Positions 3,716 to 48,645 of a stretch of DNA of 56,320 nt are shown in pieces. Below the pieces are notes generated by a model. That model was not told the origin of the DNA, made no database searches, and saw only the letters and a list, made by a program, of their open reading frames with translations. The position numbers and the translations under genes were made by a program. The stretch is from positions 1 to 56,320 of the IMG/VR virus record IMGVR_UViG_3300001533_000425. The stretch is one strand, 5' to 3'. The DNA comes from a virus. How positions within the stretch are numbered: position 1 is the stretch's first letter; each line of letters opens with the position of its first letter.

Positions 3716-4510
3716 CTATACTGGTACTATTTCTATTGTTTCTACTTTTCCTTTATTGAGTGATGCTTTTACATATCCTATTGGAAGTGGATGGTATCCT
3801 TTAACTTCAGCATAATTCTCTACTTCAAGATCATAATTACCTAAGAAAGAACCACAAGCACATCTGTATTGTACATTTTGTTTTAAATCATTTCCATTAG
3901 TAACATCAAGTGGACCACAAGAAGCATTTACTGTAAGTTGATGTGTATGTCCTTGTGCAATTATATCTACATTATTTAAAATCCTACTAGCAGAATCCAA
4001 TTTCTTTAAGTGATATCCTAAAGATGTTCCTCCACCACAACCATGATTAGTAAGCATAGTTGTTGTGTCAGAAGTTCCATTAAGTTTCCAGTATACATAA
4101 TTACTTCCAAGATATGGTATATCATGTCTGTCACATAACATTTCTAGTAGGTTAACACTATTTCTTTTACGGAATTGATACTCATGATTACCTTCATGAA
4201 GTCCAATAATTTGATTATTTTTAATAAGTGGTTGTATATCATCCTCAAAGAGTTGGAATTGTTTCTGAATCATGTTTACAGAATCACCATATTTCTGTAC
4301 GTAATGTGCAATTTCTTGTGGATCATATCTTGGGTCTCCATCTTTAATGAACTCACAATAATCTCCAAGACCAATTACTTTTCCATTTTTGTCATTTGAT
4401 ATTTTTTCAACAGCTTCTTTAAACTTCTTTCTTTTACCTCTTGGATAATGTAAATCTCCTAGTAGATATACATTACACTTATTTGGTATTTCTATTTCCT
4501 GTATTTTCAT
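3716..4510 (-). CDS. Calcineurin-like metallophosphoesterase
   Basis: A 264-residue two-metal phosphoesterase. The family motifs are in order: GDLHYPRG (about 18), GLGDYCEF (about 47), GLHEGNHEYQFR with the GNHE signature (about 103-113), a NHGC block (about 155) and QGHTHQ (about 186). Substrate may be a nucleotide, a phosphoprotein or DNA ends; the Mre11-type nuclease cannot be told apart by eye, but no DNA-binding extension is obvious. It overlaps the upstream Zn-ribbon gene by 32 bases. A second, shorter member of the superfamily is at 13.2-13.8 kb. Confidence 0.85.
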   Translation of the reverse strand: MKIQEIEIPNKCNVYLLGDLHYPRGKRKKFKEAVEKISNDKNGKVIGLGDYCEFIKDGDPRYDPQEIAHYVQKYGDSVNMIQKQFQLFEDDIQPLIKNNQIIGLHEGNHEYQFRKRNSVNLLEMLCDRHDIPYLGSNYVYWKLNGTSDTTTMLTNHGCGGGTSLGYHLKKLDSASRILNNVDIIAQGHTHQLTVNASCGPLDVTNGNDLKQNVQYRCACGSFLGNYDLEVENYAEVKGYHPLPIGYVKASLNKGKVETIEIVPV

Positions 4511-4787
4511 TTTTATTCACTTCTTTTGCTAAATTTATTAAGTCTTTTTTTAATTGTTTTGGGTTATAACCATTTCTATATGTTCTATTATACTCTCTAT
4601 GTTTCCTTGCACATTCTTTACAACGAGTTTGACCAAATGCTGTTGGTTTACCACATTCTCTACATAGATTTTCTTCATTATATTTTCTTTTGATGTTTCT
4701 AGTTCTTTCATTTATCTTCTTAACACATTCACTACAATACATTCCTAGTCTATCTTTTGGTTTACCACAATACTTGCATTTTTCCAT
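4479..4787 (-). CDS. Double zinc-ribbon protein, 102 aa
   Basis: Two similar zinc-binding units: CKYCGKPK with CSEC (residues 4-21) and CRECGKPT with CKEC (about 41-60), then a basic, Asn/Lys-rich tail. The start at 4787 follows directly after a conserved structured element (4793-4863), so that element would lie in its 5' leader. Likely nucleic-acid or protein binding; no specific function recognised. Confidence 0.7.
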   Translation of the reverse strand: MEKCKYCGKPKDRLGMYCSECVKKINERTRNIKRKYNEENLCRECGKPTAFGQTRCKECARKHREYNRTYRNGYNPKQLKKDLINLAKEVNKNENTGNRNTK

Positions 4788-4792
4788 AATAT

Positions 4793-4863
4793 AATACTAC
4801 CCTTACTATTACCCCTAGTTACTATAGTTTTTGCTTCAGCGTTGCTCTCTGTGGATCCTAGGG
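4793..4863. other. Conserved structured element, copy A
   Basis: An intergenic block almost repeated at 31670-31733. Both copies share a CCCTTACT lead, then a stem (here CCCTAG at 4812-4817 with CTAGGG at 4857-4862) that encloses the conserved core ATAGTT-TTGC-AGCGTT. The stem differs between copies yet still pairs, while the core is kept, so it is more likely a folded RNA or a protein-bound DNA site than a chance similarity. It separates the primase gene from the double Zn-ribbon gene; orientation of function is unknown. Confidence 0.65.
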
Positions 4864-4864
4864 C

Positions 4865-5797
4865 TTAATTCTTAGGTGTTGTAGACTTTTGTTTACCATA
4901 TCGTATCCCTTTCCACTCACCGTAATATGGACATTTTTCTTTCGTACAGAATCCAAGAGATTGAAGAGTATCACAAGACGGATGAGAATAATTACCTTTT
5001 GATATAAATCTTATTTGATAAATAGTATAATCAGGATTATAATCAATCCAATATTCTTTAGCAAATTGTAACATCTCTTCTTCAGTTTTATTCTTTTGTA
5101 GTTGTTCTATTACCCATGCAAATCTTATGAATTGTCTAGGTTCTTCTTCTTTAGATAATTTTTCAACACATGGATAAGGATGATATATATGTCCATTGTT
5201 ATAGTCATGTTTTTTGAAGTCTTCAATAGAGAAGTCTTCTTGTTTCATTTTTACGAAATTATTTAGATTTAGTTTCTTACCAGAATCATTCTGTGCTATT
5301 GTATAACATAAATTTCCATTTATATGATATGTACCAGGTATTCTTATTATTCTTCTGATGTCTTTAAATATTTGTTCATCAAGAGTTGTAAGATTAAGAA
5401 GTCTTTTAAATATTTTACGAATTTCATTTATTTGATTTTTAGTATAAGTTTTTGCTTCTGTTGGTATAAGAACATGGAATCCCTTACCACCAGAGAAATT
5501 TAACATTGCTCTATATCCAGATTCTATAAAATAATTATATAATCTAGATGCTTCTATAAATGCTGTCTTTAAGTTATCTGAATCAAAATCAAATGGTAAG
5601 AAGAGTAACTTAGGCATTCCTTTTACAAATGTAGTTATTGACAATCCACAATTATCTATTCCATTATGTTCATTTAAAAGATTTACTACTTCACCTCTTG
5701 TATGAACTCTTATTTGATTACCATATTTTAGATTGTCTTCTTGTCTCCAATAACAAAAGTAACGATGTCCATCAAGATACTCTTCTATATAGTCCAT
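4865..5797 (-). CDS. Primase: PriS catalytic domain fused to PriL-type Fe-S domain
   Basis: Makes primers for replication. Residues about 60-165 carry the archaeo-eukaryotic primase catalytic set: PFDFDSD (metal-binding Asp pair), NFSGGKGFHVL and RIIRIPGTYH. The C-terminal part (about 205-300) resembles the large-subunit iron-sulphur domain: YPCVEKL, then HPSCDTLQSLGFC and CPYYG, four cysteines in PriL order with the aromatic/helical segment between. Host primases are two subunits, so at 310 residues this is a compact single-chain version. It is followed leftward by structured element A and preceded by a small Zn protein whose stop touches its ATG. Confidence 0.85.
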   Translation of the reverse strand: MDYIEEYLDGHRYFCYWRQEDNLKYGNQIRVHTRGEVVNLLNEHNGIDNCGLSITTFVKGMPKLLFLPFDFDSDNLKTAFIEASRLYNYFIESGYRAMLNFSGGKGFHVLIPTEAKTYTKNQINEIRKIFKRLLNLTTLDEQIFKDIRRIIRIPGTYHINGNLCYTIAQNDSGKKLNLNNFVKMKQEDFSIEDFKKHDYNNGHIYHPYPCVEKLSKEEEPRQFIRFAWVIEQLQKNKTEEEMLQFAKEYWIDYNPDYTIYQIRFISKGNYSHPSCDTLQSLGFCTKEKCPYYGEWKGIRYGKQKSTTPKN

Positions 5798-6057: not shown

Positions 6058-6118
6058 TATAATCCTCCTAAGTCTAATAAAGTTACTTTTAATTCATATA
6101 CATTATTTAAACATTTAG

Positions 6119-6281
6119 AGAGAGGAAAGGATTTGAACCTTTGTACTCACGGTATCTCAACATCCGAGAATCATGACCCTCTTATGGATATTGCAATATA
6201 TGCGGATATTGGAGATATTTTTTTAATTTATTACTCGGATGCTTATGAGCCGTGTGCCTGTTTCCTCTAGACTACCTCTCT
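6119..6281 (-). tRNA. tRNA with CAT anticodon (Met type) and a 90-nt BHB intron
   Basis: Acceptor AGAGAGG (6281-6275) pairs with CCTCTCT (6125-6119); D arm closes with GTCT/AGGC; anticodon stem CACGG/CCGTG; T arm AAAGG-TTCAAAT-CCTTT. The anticodon loop is split after position 37 by an intron (6154-6243). At the junction CTCA pairs with TGAG, with a 3-nt bulge TAA on one side and ATA on the other and a 9-bp inner helix from GCATCCGAG, which is the canonical archaeal bulge-helix-bulge. The mature loop would be CTCATAA. No 3' CCA is encoded. Elongator Met and Ile2 cannot be told apart here. Confidence 0.93.
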
Positions 6282-11386: not shown

Positions 11387-11405
11387 TTTTTTCTCCTTTG
11401 TTTAC

Positions 11406-11496
11406 GGGCCCGAGAGGATTTGAACCTCTATTTTCATCATTACTCCATTCAAAATTACTCACATGCACTTCATAAAGAATTTTTCCTTACAGGCCC
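11406..11496 (-). ncRNA. tRNA-like structure with non-standard middle
   Basis: The ends are those of a tRNA: acceptor GGGCCTG (11496-11490) pairs with CGGGCCC (11412-11406), and a T arm AGAGG-TTCAAAT-CCTCT is perfect. Between them are 60 bases in which I cannot build a normal D arm (no GG in the loop) or a 5-bp anticodon arm with U33. So it may be a divergent or degenerate tRNA, an intron-bearing tRNA I cannot resolve, or a tRNA mimic. Its 5' strand includes the last codons of the upstream gene. Confidence 0.5.
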
Positions 11497-31257: not shown

Positions 31258-31561
31258 GTATTCGTGTATTCACTCAACCATTCTGACAGGTAATACCCAA
31301 AGACCTGCATAGGAGATTTTCGTATTTAATGGATATAATTTAAATCTACATATAATACTCCCAATATTATACATAGATAGTTTTACTCATTAATCAATAT
31401 ATCATATATGTTCTGGGATATTAAACATAATATGAATAATTATCTGTAATAAATAAATATTACAAATAATAATTGATTGAAATTTTCAAACCATAATAAC
31501 TGCAAAAAATGTCATCATACTTAAAGTTTTGGGTGGGGATTTAAATACTTGAAGTTTCTGG

Positions 31562-31576
31562 TATTTAAAGATTTCG
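31562..31576 (-). promoter_or_regulatory. Leftward promoter for the small-RNA region
   Basis: Minus strand CGAAAT (BRE-like) then CTTTAAATAC (TATA). Predicted start near 31535; the first coding sequence is more than 500 bases away, so the product begins as non-coding RNA. Confidence 0.5.
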
Positions 31577-31669
31577 ATTGTCATTAATAGTCATTAAGAA
31601 AATAGAAACACTATACCTAAATATTAGTAATATATTAAATATGAGTATGAGTGTATGGATTTAATACTA

Positions 31670-31733
31670 ATAATCACTACCCCTTACTCTACCCCTATAT
31701 ACAATAGTTATTGCGTTAGCGTTAGGATATAGG
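31670..31733. other. Conserved structured element, copy B
   Basis: Partner of the element at 4793-4863. Shared: CCCTTACT, TACCCCTA, then ATAGTT-TTGC-AGCGTT; the enclosing stem is CCCTATAT/ATATAGGG here against CCCTAG/CTAGGG in copy A. Copy A has about ten extra bases between AGCGTT and the closing strand. Confidence 0.65.
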
Positions 31734-31850
31734 GTGTTTAAATAGATAATAGAGTAGTATCATAGACTACTGAATTAAATGCAAAAAATAGAAATCCGTT
31801 TATGTAATACTAATCTATTACTATACTAAAAAAATAAAAAAAAGAAAAGA

Positions 31851-32795
31851 TTAATTGCTATTGTGTATAGCAATAATCTCATTCATTCTTTTAATAGATT
31901 GTTCTTCTGTCATATATTGTTTCTTGTTTCTATTTGGTGATGGATTGATTATAGTATCACTATGTTTCATTACACTATCGTAATCACCACTATCTATTTT
32001 ATCCTGCATTTCTTTTCTCCATAATTTAATATCCTTTTGTTTTATAGTGTTGTGCTCTGTGTTTCTTTTTCTATGTGCAGAAGTCAATCTATATTCATAG
32101 TTTATATATCCGTATTCTTCTATTTCTCTTATAATGTTACCTATCCATTCAACATTATATTTACACATTCCATTACTATGATAGAAGAACGGATGATATG
32201 ATTTGATGGCACTATATAGATATTTCAACATATCTAAGACTTTATATCCTGATATAGTTTTATCCTTTTTAGCCATATCTCTTATTTGATATGATTTTAA
32301 ACCATCATTAAATCTATGGTATAGATAATAAACTCTTGTAACAAATGTATTATCTAATGGTTTGACTCTACCATCTAATATAGTATATGTATGTGTTTCT
32401 TGGCAGTTTCTTCTATATTGTAATCTATCTTTACCATCAATTATCATATCATAATGTATATGTCTACGGAATGGATGTCCTAATGTTTCTTTAGTTTTTT
32501 CTACTCTATTAATGTTGTTTGTTGTTCCCATATCTGTTGTTCTATATGTAATGAGTTTTTGGTTTCTTCCTAAATCTATTTGTGTATCATATCCGTATTT
32601 GGTTACATCTCTATTCTTACCTTCACCTATTAGTCTTGTTTTAATATCTTCATTACCGAATACTCTACTTGTAAAGGTATGATTGATGTTCTGTCTACTA
32701 TTATAGTGGATAATAGCATAGTATTCTTTATCTTCTATTTCATTTACATCTTCTACTTTTTCTGCTAATATTTCATCAAGTTTTTCTTTACTCAT
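31851..32795 (-). CDS. Hypothetical basic protein, 314 aa
   Basis: Rich in Arg, Lys, Tyr and His, with acidic N-terminus; middle block GHPFRRHIHYDMIIDGKDR and a C-terminal basic helix. Charge suggests nucleic-acid binding. The HIH could recall a HUH nuclease, but I find no matching catalytic Tyr motif, so I do not assign it. It is one of the first leftward genes from the divergent promoter at 33.5 kb, consistent with early expression. A T-rich terminator follows the stop. Confidence 0.6.
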   Translation of the reverse strand: MSKEKLDEILAEKVEDVNEIEDKEYYAIIHYNSRQNINHTFTSRVFGNEDIKTRLIGEGKNRDVTKYGYDTQIDLGRNQKLITYRTTDMGTTNNINRVEKTKETLGHPFRRHIHYDMIIDGKDRLQYRRNCQETHTYTILDGRVKPLDNTFVTRVYYLYHRFNDGLKSYQIRDMAKKDKTISGYKVLDMLKYLYSAIKSYHPFFYHSNGMCKYNVEWIGNIIREIEEYGYINYEYRLTSAHRKRNTEHNTIKQKDIKLWRKEMQDKIDSGDYDSVMKHSDTIINPSPNRNKKQYMTEEQSIKRMNEIIAIHNSN

Positions 32796-35592: not shown

Positions 35593-35793
35593 ATGACATA
35601 TAATAAGTATGATGATACAGGCCACCAAATACCACTAATTGATATAATACCAAGTAAAAGAAAACAAGATTGGTATTCTTGTAAAATGTCAGGTATTGGT
35701 CGAGTATGCACAAAAGAAAAGAATATAATGAAACTTGAAGAAGAAGGATACGAAATAATTGAAATATACTATATTGCAGAGGCTAATCAGTAG
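35593..35793 (+). CDS. Hypothetical protein, 66 aa
   Basis: MTYNKYDDTGHQIPLIDIIP then basic and acidic patches (PSKRKQDWYSCK; KLEEEGYEIIEIYYI). Leaderless spacing from the TATA. A hairpin-rich GGCC stretch follows (35812-35851). Function unknown. Confidence 0.6.
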   Translation: MTYNKYDDTGHQIPLIDIIPSKRKQDWYSCKMSGIGRVCTKEKNIMKLEEEGYEIIEIYYIAEANQ

Positions 35794-35811
35794 TCTGGAT
35801 ATAGTCTATAT

Positions 35812-35856
35812 TAGGCCATAGGAGCCACATAGATGGCCTCTAAGGCCATATCTTTT
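35812..35856 (+). terminator. Hairpin and T-run after gene 4
   Basis: TTAGGCCATAGGAGCC...GGCCTCTAAGGCC can fold as alternative hairpins and is followed by a run of T residues. Confidence 0.45.
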
Positions 35857-35909
35857 TTATCTAATGGTAATAGTAGGGTTGAGTATTATTCATATAAATC
35901 CTTAATAGT

Positions 35910-41753: not shown

Positions 41754-43106
41754 ATGAATATATATGATAAGATAAAATATTTTAATCCTTTCAGACGAAA
41801 AATCAAATACCTAGATAGTGAAGGTAAACCAAGGACTACTGTTAAAGCTGGTGGTAAACAAGAAGGTTCATTATTTTCACAAAAAGAAAGAACTGAAGCT
41901 CAATTAAAGAAGTATTGGCAATATTATACCCAAGAAGGCACTGTCTGGGCTGCTATTAATTCTATTGCATATAATACTGTTATGGTAGGATATGATATAG
42001 AGTCAAATGATAAAGAAGCTAAGAAAATAATAGAAAGATGGTGTAGAAAAGTAGATTTACCTATTCATTTATTAAATAATACTATATATGGTCTTGTATT
42101 TGGTGATTCTTTTATAGAAATTATAAAAAATAAAAAACAATCACCATCCTCATTAAAGGATGTTGATCCACAAACAATGGAAGTAAACTTTGATAAATAT
42201 GGTATTGTACAGAATTATACTCAATCACTTGGTAAAAAAGCAGGTGAATCTGTACCAAAACTTGATAAGGAGTCAATATGTCACATAAGATTCTTTCCAA
42301 AACCAAATAATCCTTATGGACTTTCATTAATTTCACCTAATGTAGATATATTAGATAAGAAAGTTAGAGCTGATAATGCTATTGCATCAGCTATTATAAG
42401 ACATGGCACATCAAAACTTGTATTTTCAGTTGGTTCTGAAAAAGATGGACAACTTCCACCTGATTCTGTTCTTGAAGCAATTGAAAGTGAAGTTGAAGAT
42501 ATTGATGAAAAGAATGAATTTGTTGTACCTTGGAACGTTGATGTGTATCCTATTGATGAGAAAGGAATTCAAGGTGTAGAAGAGTATTACAATTATTTTC
42601 AATCTCAACTTGTTCTTGGACTTTTAGTTCCTGGAGAGGTACTTGGTCTTGGACAAGGTTCTACTGAAGCTACTGCTAGAGTAAGAGCACTCTTATATGA
42701 AAGAATGATTCAATCTTTCCAGACTCAATTAGCTGCAATTGTTGAAAAACAATTATTTAAGAAGGTATTACAAGCAAATGGATATGACATGGAAGATGAA
42801 GAAAATGATGTGTATGTAAAAATAAACTTTAGAAGCGTAACAGATGCTGATGAATCAGAGAAAGCTAAATGGATGGGTAATCTTATAAGAGGTTTTAGAT
42901 CATCTAAGACTAAACCATTTACAATTAATGAGATTAGAAGAATGTTCAATAAACCTGAGCTTGATGACCCAGAAGCAGATACAATTATATATGAAGGATA
43001 TGAAAAAAATGGAACAGCTGATCAAGAGCCTTCTGAAGAAAATGTAACAAATGAAGATGATGATATGACATCAGAAAAAGAGGAAGAAGATGAAGAAGAA
43101 TCTTAA
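41754..43106 (+). CDS. Portal protein
   Basis: 450 residues, the dodecameric ring through which DNA enters. Opening region and GTVWAAINSIAYNTVMVGYD (about 62-81), a helical stem with DKKVRADNAIASAIIRHG, and PGEVLGLGQGSTEATARVRA (about 290-310) fit phage portal folds. C-terminus very acidic (MTSEKEEEDEEES), typical. It follows Alba by one base. Confidence 0.88.
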   Translation: MNIYDKIKYFNPFRRKIKYLDSEGKPRTTVKAGGKQEGSLFSQKERTEAQLKKYWQYYTQEGTVWAAINSIAYNTVMVGYDIESNDKEAKKIIERWCRKVDLPIHLLNNTIYGLVFGDSFIEIIKNKKQSPSSLKDVDPQTMEVNFDKYGIVQNYTQSLGKKAGESVPKLDKESICHIRFFPKPNNPYGLSLISPNVDILDKKVRADNAIASAIIRHGTSKLVFSVGSEKDGQLPPDSVLEAIESEVEDIDEKNEFVVPWNVDVYPIDEKGIQGVEEYYNYFQSQLVLGLLVPGEVLGLGQGSTEATARVRALLYERMIQSFQTQLAAIVEKQLFKKVLQANGYDMEDEENDVYVKINFRSVTDADESEKAKWMGNLIRGFRSSKTKPFTINEIRRMFNKPELDDPEADTIIYEGYEKNGTADQEPSEENVTNEDDDMTSEKEEEDEEES

Positions 43107-43617
43107 AACAATTCATAATCCTATGGTAAAGTTTGAGTATGACAAATCATTATTTGGAAAATCAACTAATGTGAGAATATATCATGATGCTACTCTTATA
43201 ACACCAGGTGTATTCTCAGATTCTATTACAATGTCTCCAGTTAAGTATTCAGAAGATGTATTAAGTACTACTGTCAATAAATGGCATTCTAATTACTTAA
43301 ATATAAATCACTCTAGAAATGTTCTTGATAGAATAGGAAGAGTAGTTAATCCATATTACTCAGATGGGAGAGTAAAAGGAGATTTATATATATTTCCAGT
43401 AACTCAGAATGCAAGAGATACTATTGAATTAATTGATGAAGGTCTTATTAATTGGTTATCAGTAGAATTAATCACAGAGGATTCATGGGATAGAAATGAT
43501 GAAAGATATGTCAGTGACTTAAAATATATGGGAGTTGCTGTAGTAACAGAACCAGCTTGCTCAAATGCTAAAATTGATGAATCTGGAGCAGACTTTGATT
43601 TGCCTACAGAGGTATAA
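43090..43617 (+). CDS. Prohead protease-like protein 1
   Basis: 175 residues resembling phage prohead serine protease folds of the XkdF/U35 kind: a His at YLNINHSRNVLDRIGRV (about 76), DEGLINWLSVELITED (about 117-132, catalytic Ser candidate) and GVAVVTEPACSNAKI (about 148-162). It would cleave scaffold or capsid precursors. A larger homologous protein is encoded at 45841-47118, each followed by its own capsid gene. Overlaps portal by 17 bases. Confidence 0.7.
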   Translation: MKKNLKTIHNPMVKFEYDKSLFGKSTNVRIYHDATLITPGVFSDSITMSPVKYSEDVLSTTVNKWHSNYLNINHSRNVLDRIGRVVNPYYSDGRVKGDLYIFPVTQNARDTIELIDEGLINWLSVELITEDSWDRNDERYVSDLKYMGVAVVTEPACSNAKIDESGADFDLPTEV

Positions 43618-44161: not shown

Positions 44162-45130
44162 ATGTCAAGATTAACAAAATTATTAGAATATGAGTTTGCT
44201 GGTAATTCACAGAAGAAAAGAATTCTAAACTCTGCGTCTTTTAATAATTTATTCAATAAACAAGAAAAACAACTTATTATAGGTACAGATGCTGATATAA
44301 GTGGTAATCTATTAATGGAAGAAATAACTAACACTATTAAGAATGGAGCTGAAAATAGAAGATTAATGAGAGACATTCTTCCTACAGTAAATGTTAAAGG
44401 AAATAGTGTAACTCCAGTATACGGAACTAAACCTAGTGGAAATCTAGCAGAAAAAATAGCTGAAGGAAGTTCATTTCCGGTACAAACAGAGATATATTCA
44501 AGTGGAGCAACAATAAATATCAATAAATATGGTACTCGTAGTACTATAACTAGTGAATTAATAGAAGATTCTCAGTTTGATTTAATAGAAATTGAATTAA
44601 TGAGAATTGGAGAAAAGCTCGAGAATAAATTAAATGAAGTAGTTATTGGAACTCTTTTAGATAATCATAATGGGACTACACCATCTGATGTTGATCCTGG
44701 TGCATCTGTTGTTAGATACGAAGATATTGGAGATGCATACGAGGAACTTGGAACAATTGGATGGAAACCAACAGACTTAATAATGAGACCAAGATTTGTA
44801 GGCCAATTACTTACTTGTCCTAATAGTCCTAGCGGTGCTGCGACACCAATAAACGCAGATTATGGATCAGGAAAGTTATTTGGTATTAATACACATGTAC
44901 TTGATACTCCTTATAATGGAACTACATACTGGGATGATACTGATGGAGCAAGTCATTACTATGGTTTACTATTAGATAGAAATAATTATGGTATGATTGC
45001 AATTAAACAGGATATAACTGTTGAAAATTATAGAGATTATCCGACAGATTTGTGTGGCATCGTTGGTACAATAAAATTTGGTGTAGGTGTTGCACATAAT
45101 GATGCAGCTGTGAGGATTTTAACTAAATAG
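44162..45130 (+). CDS. Major capsid protein-like 1 (HK97 type)
   Basis: 322 residues similar throughout to the protein at 47656-48645: same start (MSRLTKLLEYEFAGNSQKKR), a P-domain-like NINKYGTRSTITSELIED, and C-terminal block DITVENYRDYPTDLCGIVGT then FGVGVAHNDAAVRIL. Fits HK97-fold capsid proteins, probably cleaved after the charged N-terminal arm. Having two such genes is unusual; either may be the main subunit, the other a minor or vertex form. Confidence 0.8.
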   Translation: MSRLTKLLEYEFAGNSQKKRILNSASFNNLFNKQEKQLIIGTDADISGNLLMEEITNTIKNGAENRRLMRDILPTVNVKGNSVTPVYGTKPSGNLAEKIAEGSSFPVQTEIYSSGATININKYGTRSTITSELIEDSQFDLIEIELMRIGEKLENKLNEVVIGTLLDNHNGTTPSDVDPGASVVRYEDIGDAYEELGTIGWKPTDLIMRPRFVGQLLTCPNSPSGAATPINADYGSGKLFGINTHVLDTPYNGTTYWDDTDGASHYYGLLLDRNNYGMIAIKQDITVENYRDYPTDLCGIVGTIKFGVGVAHNDAAVRILTK

Positions 45131-47655: not shown

Positions 47656-48645
47656 ATGTCAAAATTAACTAAAATGCTGGAATATTCATACGCAGGAAAC
47701 ACAGAGAAAAAAAGAATGGCAAATTCTGAGTCTTTCAAGAAAACTGTATTAGATACTGTTCCAAAAACAGAGAAAGAACTTTTACTCACTGAAGGAATGG
47801 AATCAACAACTCTCTTACAGACAGAGGTATATAATACTATTCTTGAAGGTGCACAACCAGAAATGACTGTACGTAACATTTTTCCAGTCATTAAAACGGA
47901 TACTAATCAAATCAGGCTTACGTATGAATCTGGAGCTCTTGCAAAAGCAGGAGAAGTTGCAGAAGGAGCAGCTATTCCAATTCACACAGAAAATTTTGAT
48001 ACCAAAAATATCAACATTAAGAAAATTGGTGTAAGACCAGTAATTACTAATGAACTTATTGAAGATGGTCTCTGGAACATGGTAGAGTTCGAACTTAAAA
48101 GAGCTGGACAAAAGATTGAGCATAAGCTCAACTATGATGTAATCCAAGAAGCTATTGATAAAGATTCATATAGTAACATCGCAAGTGTCGATGCTGGTCC
48201 TGCCTTTACTGTCCAAAATATTTTAGACGGTATTGCAGAGATTAACTATAATCATTACAAACCAACTGATCTTATTCTTACTCCTTGGGCTGAGAATAGA
48301 TTAGTTTCTGGGAACAATTTGCTTCAAGCAAATTATGCTGGTGATAACCAAGCTCTTAGAAATTATAATGTTGGTAACTTGTTTGGTCTCAAAATGCATC
48401 GCTTAAGTACCAGAGGAGAATCTACTGATACTTATAAATGGGCTGGTATTGATGGTAAAATTGATACTGCAAATGATGTATCTGCTCTGCTCTGTGATCC
48501 ATCATATTGTATGATTGGAATGCGTAGAGATATCTCTGTTGAACAATATGACGACCCAATCCATGATTTGGTTGGCATTGCTGCAACTATGAGATATGGT
48601 GTAAAAACTATTGAAGGCAAAAAAGCTTGTATTATAGAACACTAG
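47656..48645 (+). CDS. Major capsid protein-like 2 (HK97 type)
   Basis: 329 residues, homologous to the protein at 44162-45130: MSKLTKMLEYSYAGNTEKKR start, NINIKKIGVRPVITNELIED, YKPTDLILTPWAENRLVSGN and the C-terminal DISVEQYDDPIHDLVGIAAT. It has its own late-motif and AAGTGAT ribosome site and is followed by a small hairpin-like GATAGGTA...TATC, T-rich end, so it is expressed as a separate strong unit. Probably the main shell protein of the two. Confidence 0.85.
   Translation: MSKLTKMLEYSYAGNTEKKRMANSESFKKTVLDTVPKTEKELLLTEGMESTTLLQTEVYNTILEGAQPEMTVRNIFPVIKTDTNQIRLTYESGALAKAGEVAEGAAIPIHTENFDTKNINIKKIGVRPVITNELIEDGLWNMVEFELKRAGQKIEHKLNYDVIQEAIDKDSYSNIASVDAGPAFTVQNILDGIAEINYNHYKPTDLILTPWAENRLVSGNNLLQANYAGDNQALRNYNVGNLFGLKMHRLSTRGESTDTYKWAGIDGKIDTANDVSALLCDPSYCMIGMRRDISVEQYDDPIHDLVGIAATMRYGVKTIEGKKACIIEH

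Follow-up and report, generated by a model that had tools for sequence, protein, structure and literature searches.

A diverged three-copy repeat in the gene gaps of one virus genome, best conserved in its lead

The virus genome analysed here contains a three-member intergenic repeat that is real and, in the data examined, nearly private to this virus. Its best conserved part is the lead, rather than the "core" singled out in a preliminary description of this DNA. We tentatively favor the view that the repeat is a cis-acting DNA element specific to this virus; in each of its three diverged copies a putative protein-bound lead box stands beside a short imperfect inverted repeat. The window, that is, the whole stretch of 56,320 bases that was analysed, is the complete virus record.

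Identification of the repeat

The preliminary description had recognised two blocks (c1 and c2) by lead, core and closing-arm strings, every one of which is present where it was reported, and had placed both blocks between genes, where they indeed lie (c1 in gap 4788-4864, c2 in gap 30191-31850). Local alignment of c1 and c2 gives a score of 54 with 45 of 55 columns identical; in 200 dinucleotide-shuffled windows the best score was 37 for c1 and 40 for c2 (queries of 110 and 130 nt, respectively). The two blocks are thus a true repeat. A 20-nt core pattern, allowing up to three mismatches, matches the window three times (c1 and c2 exactly), compared to an expectation of 0.07.

Both blocks stand as copies, but the count of two missed a third, nearly full-length inverted copy (c3), which came to light when c1 was aligned locally, with gaps, to the whole window (Table 1). 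The c1-c3 alignment scores 46 (60 of 83 columns) and spans ATAATACT to the last CTTAAT/CCTAAT. The direct score between c2 and c3 is 36, which is inside the shuffled range; c3 therefore joins the family via c1. When the 37 noncoding gaps were compared all against all, no further partner of c1 appeared among the best 70 pairs. A coding origin of the repeat was considered and rejected: by inspection, c1 and c3 differ from each other by alignment gaps of 1 and 2 nt and so share no reading frame. An integron attC-like site was likewise rejected, the attC box not being common to the copies.

Table 1. Coordinates of the three copies and of neighboring promoter-like and terminator-like signals in the window.
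Feature	Position	Strand	Parts and remarks
Copy c1	4791-4863	+	lead 4791-4813; arms 4813-4818, 4858-4863
Copy c2	31670-31734	+	lead 31670-31694; arms 31693-31700, 31727-31734
Copy c3	35810-35889	minus, inverted	lead 35866-35889; arms 35861-35867, 35816-35821, one bulge
TATA-like TTTAATAC	31660-31667	+	10 nt before c2 lead; candidate promoter
TATA-like TTTATATG	35891-35898	minus	9 nt before c3 lead; candidate promoter
Terminator-like hairpin then six T	35833-35858	+	gene-sense strand of c3

Genomic setting

Copy c1 fills a 77-bp gap between two leftward genes, a primase-like gene (4865-5797, minus) and a zinc-ribbon gene (4479-4787, minus), with PolB near. Copy c2 lies beyond a T-run that follows ORF 31851-32795 (minus), and c3 is located after a rightward ORF of 66 aa (35593-35793). 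All three copies occupy gene gaps downstream of a stop codon, in the same orientation relative to that gene.

This constancy speaks for a gene-end element, either a terminator or an mRNA 3'-end structure, acting on the strand of the upstream gene. Copy c3 fits such a role: it carries a hairpin followed by six T, at a place where, in the related virus L014, the same ORF is followed by a long T-rich tract. However, when one criterion (G+C hairpin plus T run) was applied to every copy, c3 alone gave a terminator-like match, with none at c1 and none at c2. Moreover, c2 sits past an existing T-run, c1 ends just before the ATG of the next gene, and the c1 fold on the gene strand is no better than shuffled sequence (125 of 200 shuffles were at least as good). 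We consider a gene-end element unlikely.

Genes recognised in the window include a terminase, a head-maturation protease, PolB, the primase-like gene, an ERCC4 nuclease and a RadA/UvsX-like ATPase. A PolB search with a single-sequence query returned nothing; a two-row alignment query gave matches. Genes run leftward to approximately 33 kb and mostly rightward thereafter, and cumulative GC skew reaches its minimum at 33-34 kb. TATA-type promoters (by inspection), the primase and PolB types and a terminase relative (37%) in a Candidatus Methanoperedens contig together suggest an archaeal tailed virus. Terminase matches occur in 5 of 392 genomes sampled from one archaeal phylum, that of G009 (E up to 1e-30), although this does not establish a host assignment.

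Several other features of the window were noted. At the gathering threshold, Rfam models identify only tRNAs, and a looser search (E up to 1) yielded nothing relevant. Two tRNA matches, both on the minus strand and both missed by ARAGORN, carry insertions: one at 6118-6281 (37.8 bits) with a large intron-like insertion in the anticodon region, the other at 11405-11496 (27.9 bits, just under gathering). Noncoding positions 30671-30808 share 90.6% identity with L014 2654-2792, a level much higher than across most of the neighboring sequence; the end of this segment, read on the minus strand, resembles a tRNA T-arm by inspection, and no Rfam match to it was found. Between 34156 and 37761, repeated boxes (about AATATAAAA-GCGTAAG) stand upstream of the TATA boxes of small rightward genes, whereas a different repeated box, GGCGGACCCC, is found near the corresponding promoters of L014; this looks like a virus-specific operator swap. 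Finally, the proteins encoded at 44162-45130 and 47656-48645 match each other's relatives in L010, L011, L014, L040-L042 and L046, and are apparent paralogues in the structural block.

Conservation of the lead

The lead reads ATAATACT..ACCC..TACTATTACC (in c1 and c2, CCCTTACT/ACCCCTA). By-eye counts on the alignments show that c1 and c2 are identical at 25 of 29 columns in the lead, against 20 of 26 in the remainder; for c1 and c3 the equivalent figures are 22 of 22 aligned letters and 38 of 54. The strings ATAGTT, TTGC and AGCGTT, on which the idea of a conserved core was based, are common to c1 and c2 only; c3 lacks all three, and the idea does not hold. On the gene-sense strand the lead takes the form GGTA(A/G)...AGTA..GGG(T)..., and in c1, c2 and L014 a GGTA half-site occurs twice at a spacing of 12 nt; in c3 the repeat of the half-site is lost.

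Relatives and the search for further copies

L014 keeps the gene order on both sides of the gap that corresponds to c2. In that gap, at L014 position 3470, is a lead-only relative, ACTACCCTATACTCTACC, with a lead score of 27 that none of 2000 shuffles of the gap equalled; the core does not follow it. The lead is absent from the corresponding gap of L041 (77 of 500 shuffles were as good), no element is present in L014 at the gene boundary of c3, and none follows the primase-like gene of L009, a distant relative that possesses this gene. Pattern searches for a full copy found it in 0 of 7 and 0 of 12 related records.

Local alignment against 19 loci (304,811 bases) gave maximum scores of 33 for c1, 33 for c2 and 39 for c3. 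The best score of c2 comes from L014, on the same strand as the lead site, and that of c3 from L044, within a stretch matching ORF 43090-43617. L017 and L018 score 41 with c1; they were excluded from this control because the pattern had selected them. Viral contigs searched with three patterns delivered six, four and two stretches: the first six all lacked the lead, the next four all lacked the core after the lead, and the final two are Pro/Thr-repeat coding sequence. No copy was detected in the 392 archaeal genomes, and no credible match to the repeat in phage and plasmid records.

The failure to find a full copy in relatives, including L014 at the c3 boundary, together with the strong divergence among the copies and their location exclusively in gaps, fits duplicated debris, or a REP- or MITE-like repeat copied into gene gaps and now devoid of function. 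Against this stand the retention of the lead in L014 at the place of c2, and the fact that no transposase is present among 40 proteins scanned with Pfam (39 of the 76 listed ORFs plus one). Debris, too, is an unlikely explanation.

Closing stem and folding

The preliminary description had proposed a covarying stem closing each block. Arms of differing lengths do pair in each copy: CCCTAG/CTAGGG in c1, CCCTATAT/ATATAGGG in c2 and, with one bulge, CCATTAG/CTATGG in c3. The pairing is, however, only weakly better than chance. In an anchored-stem test (one bulge allowed, 2000 shuffles per copy), a stem of the same quality that ends at the lead had a chance probability of 0.055 for c1, 0.037 for c2 and 0.163 for c3, the c3 value covering other pairs because the scoring preferred a different, inner stem. 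In RNAalifold energy, between 14 and 31 of 200 column shuffles did as well as the real alignments. Among 2694 noncoding 60-nt windows of the genome, z-scores as low as those of the copies occur in 13% (c1), 15% (c2) and 4% (c3). The folding stability of the copies is ordinary for the noncoding gaps of this virus. The predicted folds (from programs that do not predict pseudoknots) show one main hairpin, made of the closing stem and variable inner pairs. A closing stem in the copies is plausible.

It is conceivable that the copies are three small RNA genes, each with a TATA box, the lead as promoter or operator and an RNA of 45-65 nt with pairing ends, c1 and c2 being transcribed from the plus strand and c3 from the minus strand. 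Consistent with this, TATA-like octamers stand shortly before the leads of c2 and c3, and in all three copies the lead-to-hairpin strand has the better fold rank (c1, 0.130 vs 0.463 for the opposite strand; c2, 0.151 vs 0.167; c3, 0.040 vs 0.105). Stretches trimmed to the hairpin on that strand were matched or bettered by only 13, 3 and 1 of 200 shuffles (c1, c2 and c3), although their ends were chosen after the stems had been seen. Similarly, the TATA pattern, which matches 55 of 25,684 noncoding strand-positions, was fixed after the c2 and c3 octamers had been seen; neither c1 nor the L014 site has a match before the lead. Nor does a T-run terminator follow the copies, the would-be RNA is less conserved than the lead, and the folds do not stand out among the gaps of the genome. 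Small RNA genes are therefore a doubtful reading, if one to be taken seriously.

We judge a more ambitious version of this idea to be quite unlikely: a novel family of small structured RNAs encoded by an archaeal tailed virus, with three paralogous genes in gene gaps, sharing a lead or promoter box and having compensated closing stems. If true, such a family would perhaps act on replication or on the expression of neighboring genes.

A small self-cleaving ribozyme, as the preliminary description had entertained, is highly improbable. The core strings of c1 and c2 resemble what we take to be the conserved strand of pistol ribozymes. But the core is missing from c3, the predicted folds contain a single main hairpin, the stem tests are marginal, stability is ordinary, neither the 12 related records (full copies) nor the 392 sampled genomes (any copy) yielded one, and no Rfam ribozyme family matches around any of the three copies up to E 10. 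The preliminary description had itself named two findings that would speak against it, a lack of copies in relatives and a lack of a stable fold; with the exception of the lead-only relative in L014, this is largely what we found. Its broader notion of a repeated, probably functional intergenic element is supported; the reading as folded RNA or ribozyme is not.

A proposed protein-bound DNA site

The lead outlasts the rest of the element, and for this reason we favor, tentatively as stated above, a protein-bound DNA site. Each copy would comprise two parts, a lead box of ~24 nt and an adjacent short imperfect inverted repeat. The lead would most likely be the target of a DNA-binding protein encoded by the virus or its host, and the copies, lying in gaps after genes, would act in gene regulation or in replication. 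The repeat may be a site of recombination or replication, the second option offered in the preliminary description, or a DNA site of another kind.

In support of the DNA site, the repeat scores far above shuffles, the lead is more conserved than the remainder, and a lead without core persists in L014. Genomic location provides further support: c2 and c3 flank the GC-skew minimum, nearly equidistant from 33.8 kb (the region where the cumulative skew is lowest) and both pointing away from it, while c1 adjoins the primase-like gene with PolB close by. Counting against it are the loss of the half-site repeat in c3, the L041 gap that lacks the lead, and the L014 boundary without a match to c3. With three copies from a single genome, a DNA role and an RNA role cannot be told apart. 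Should the lead prove to be a binding site, or the copies to be expressed as RNAs, the repeat would be a pointer to gene control or to the start of replication in this group of viruses; at present the element is a starting point for experiment rather than a new class.

Comparison with known systems

In the portions of the literature consulted on archaeal viruses and their structured or small RNAs, ribozymes and extragenic palindromes, nothing describes this repeat, and no description of a repeated noncoding element of such a kind in an archaeal tailed virus was found there. REP-type extragenic palindromes are repeated, extragenic, imperfect inverted repeats located after genes. The repeat shares with them multiple copies in gaps after genes and a putative imperfect inverted repeat, whose statistical support is weak; it differs in having only three diverged members, with no transposase among the 40 proteins scanned. 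The likeness to intrinsic or T-rich terminators is one of position after stop codons, reinforced in c3 by the hairpin and T6, whereas c1 has no terminator-like match and c2 lies beyond a separate T-run.

Pistol ribozymes have three stems and a pseudoknot and a highly conserved core; the predicted folds of the copies, from programs that do not model pseudoknots, show a closing stem with variable inner pairs, the covariance model of the family does not match the copies, and c3 is without the core. Pistol is described as a self-cleaving ribozyme (PMC4604425).

Betapleolipoviruses are described as having a hairpin replication origin downstream of the Rep-Arvir gene (PMC13107129). Their hairpin adjoins the rep gene and is described there as an origin, whereas here there are three diverged copies, in a virus that has its own PolB and primase-like gene and in which no Rep was recognised. 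As to a replication initiator beside the copies, c1 follows the primase-like gene, and ORF 31851, which adjoins c2, has no Pfam match and an AF2 model (mean pLDDT 44) too poor to be used in a structure search. The similarities are an archaeal virus (here an apparent one) and, downstream of a gene, intergenic DNA that may form a hairpin, with a second short motif alongside; by position, the betapleolipovirus hairpin origin is the closest described counterpart of the repeat reported here (PMC13107129).
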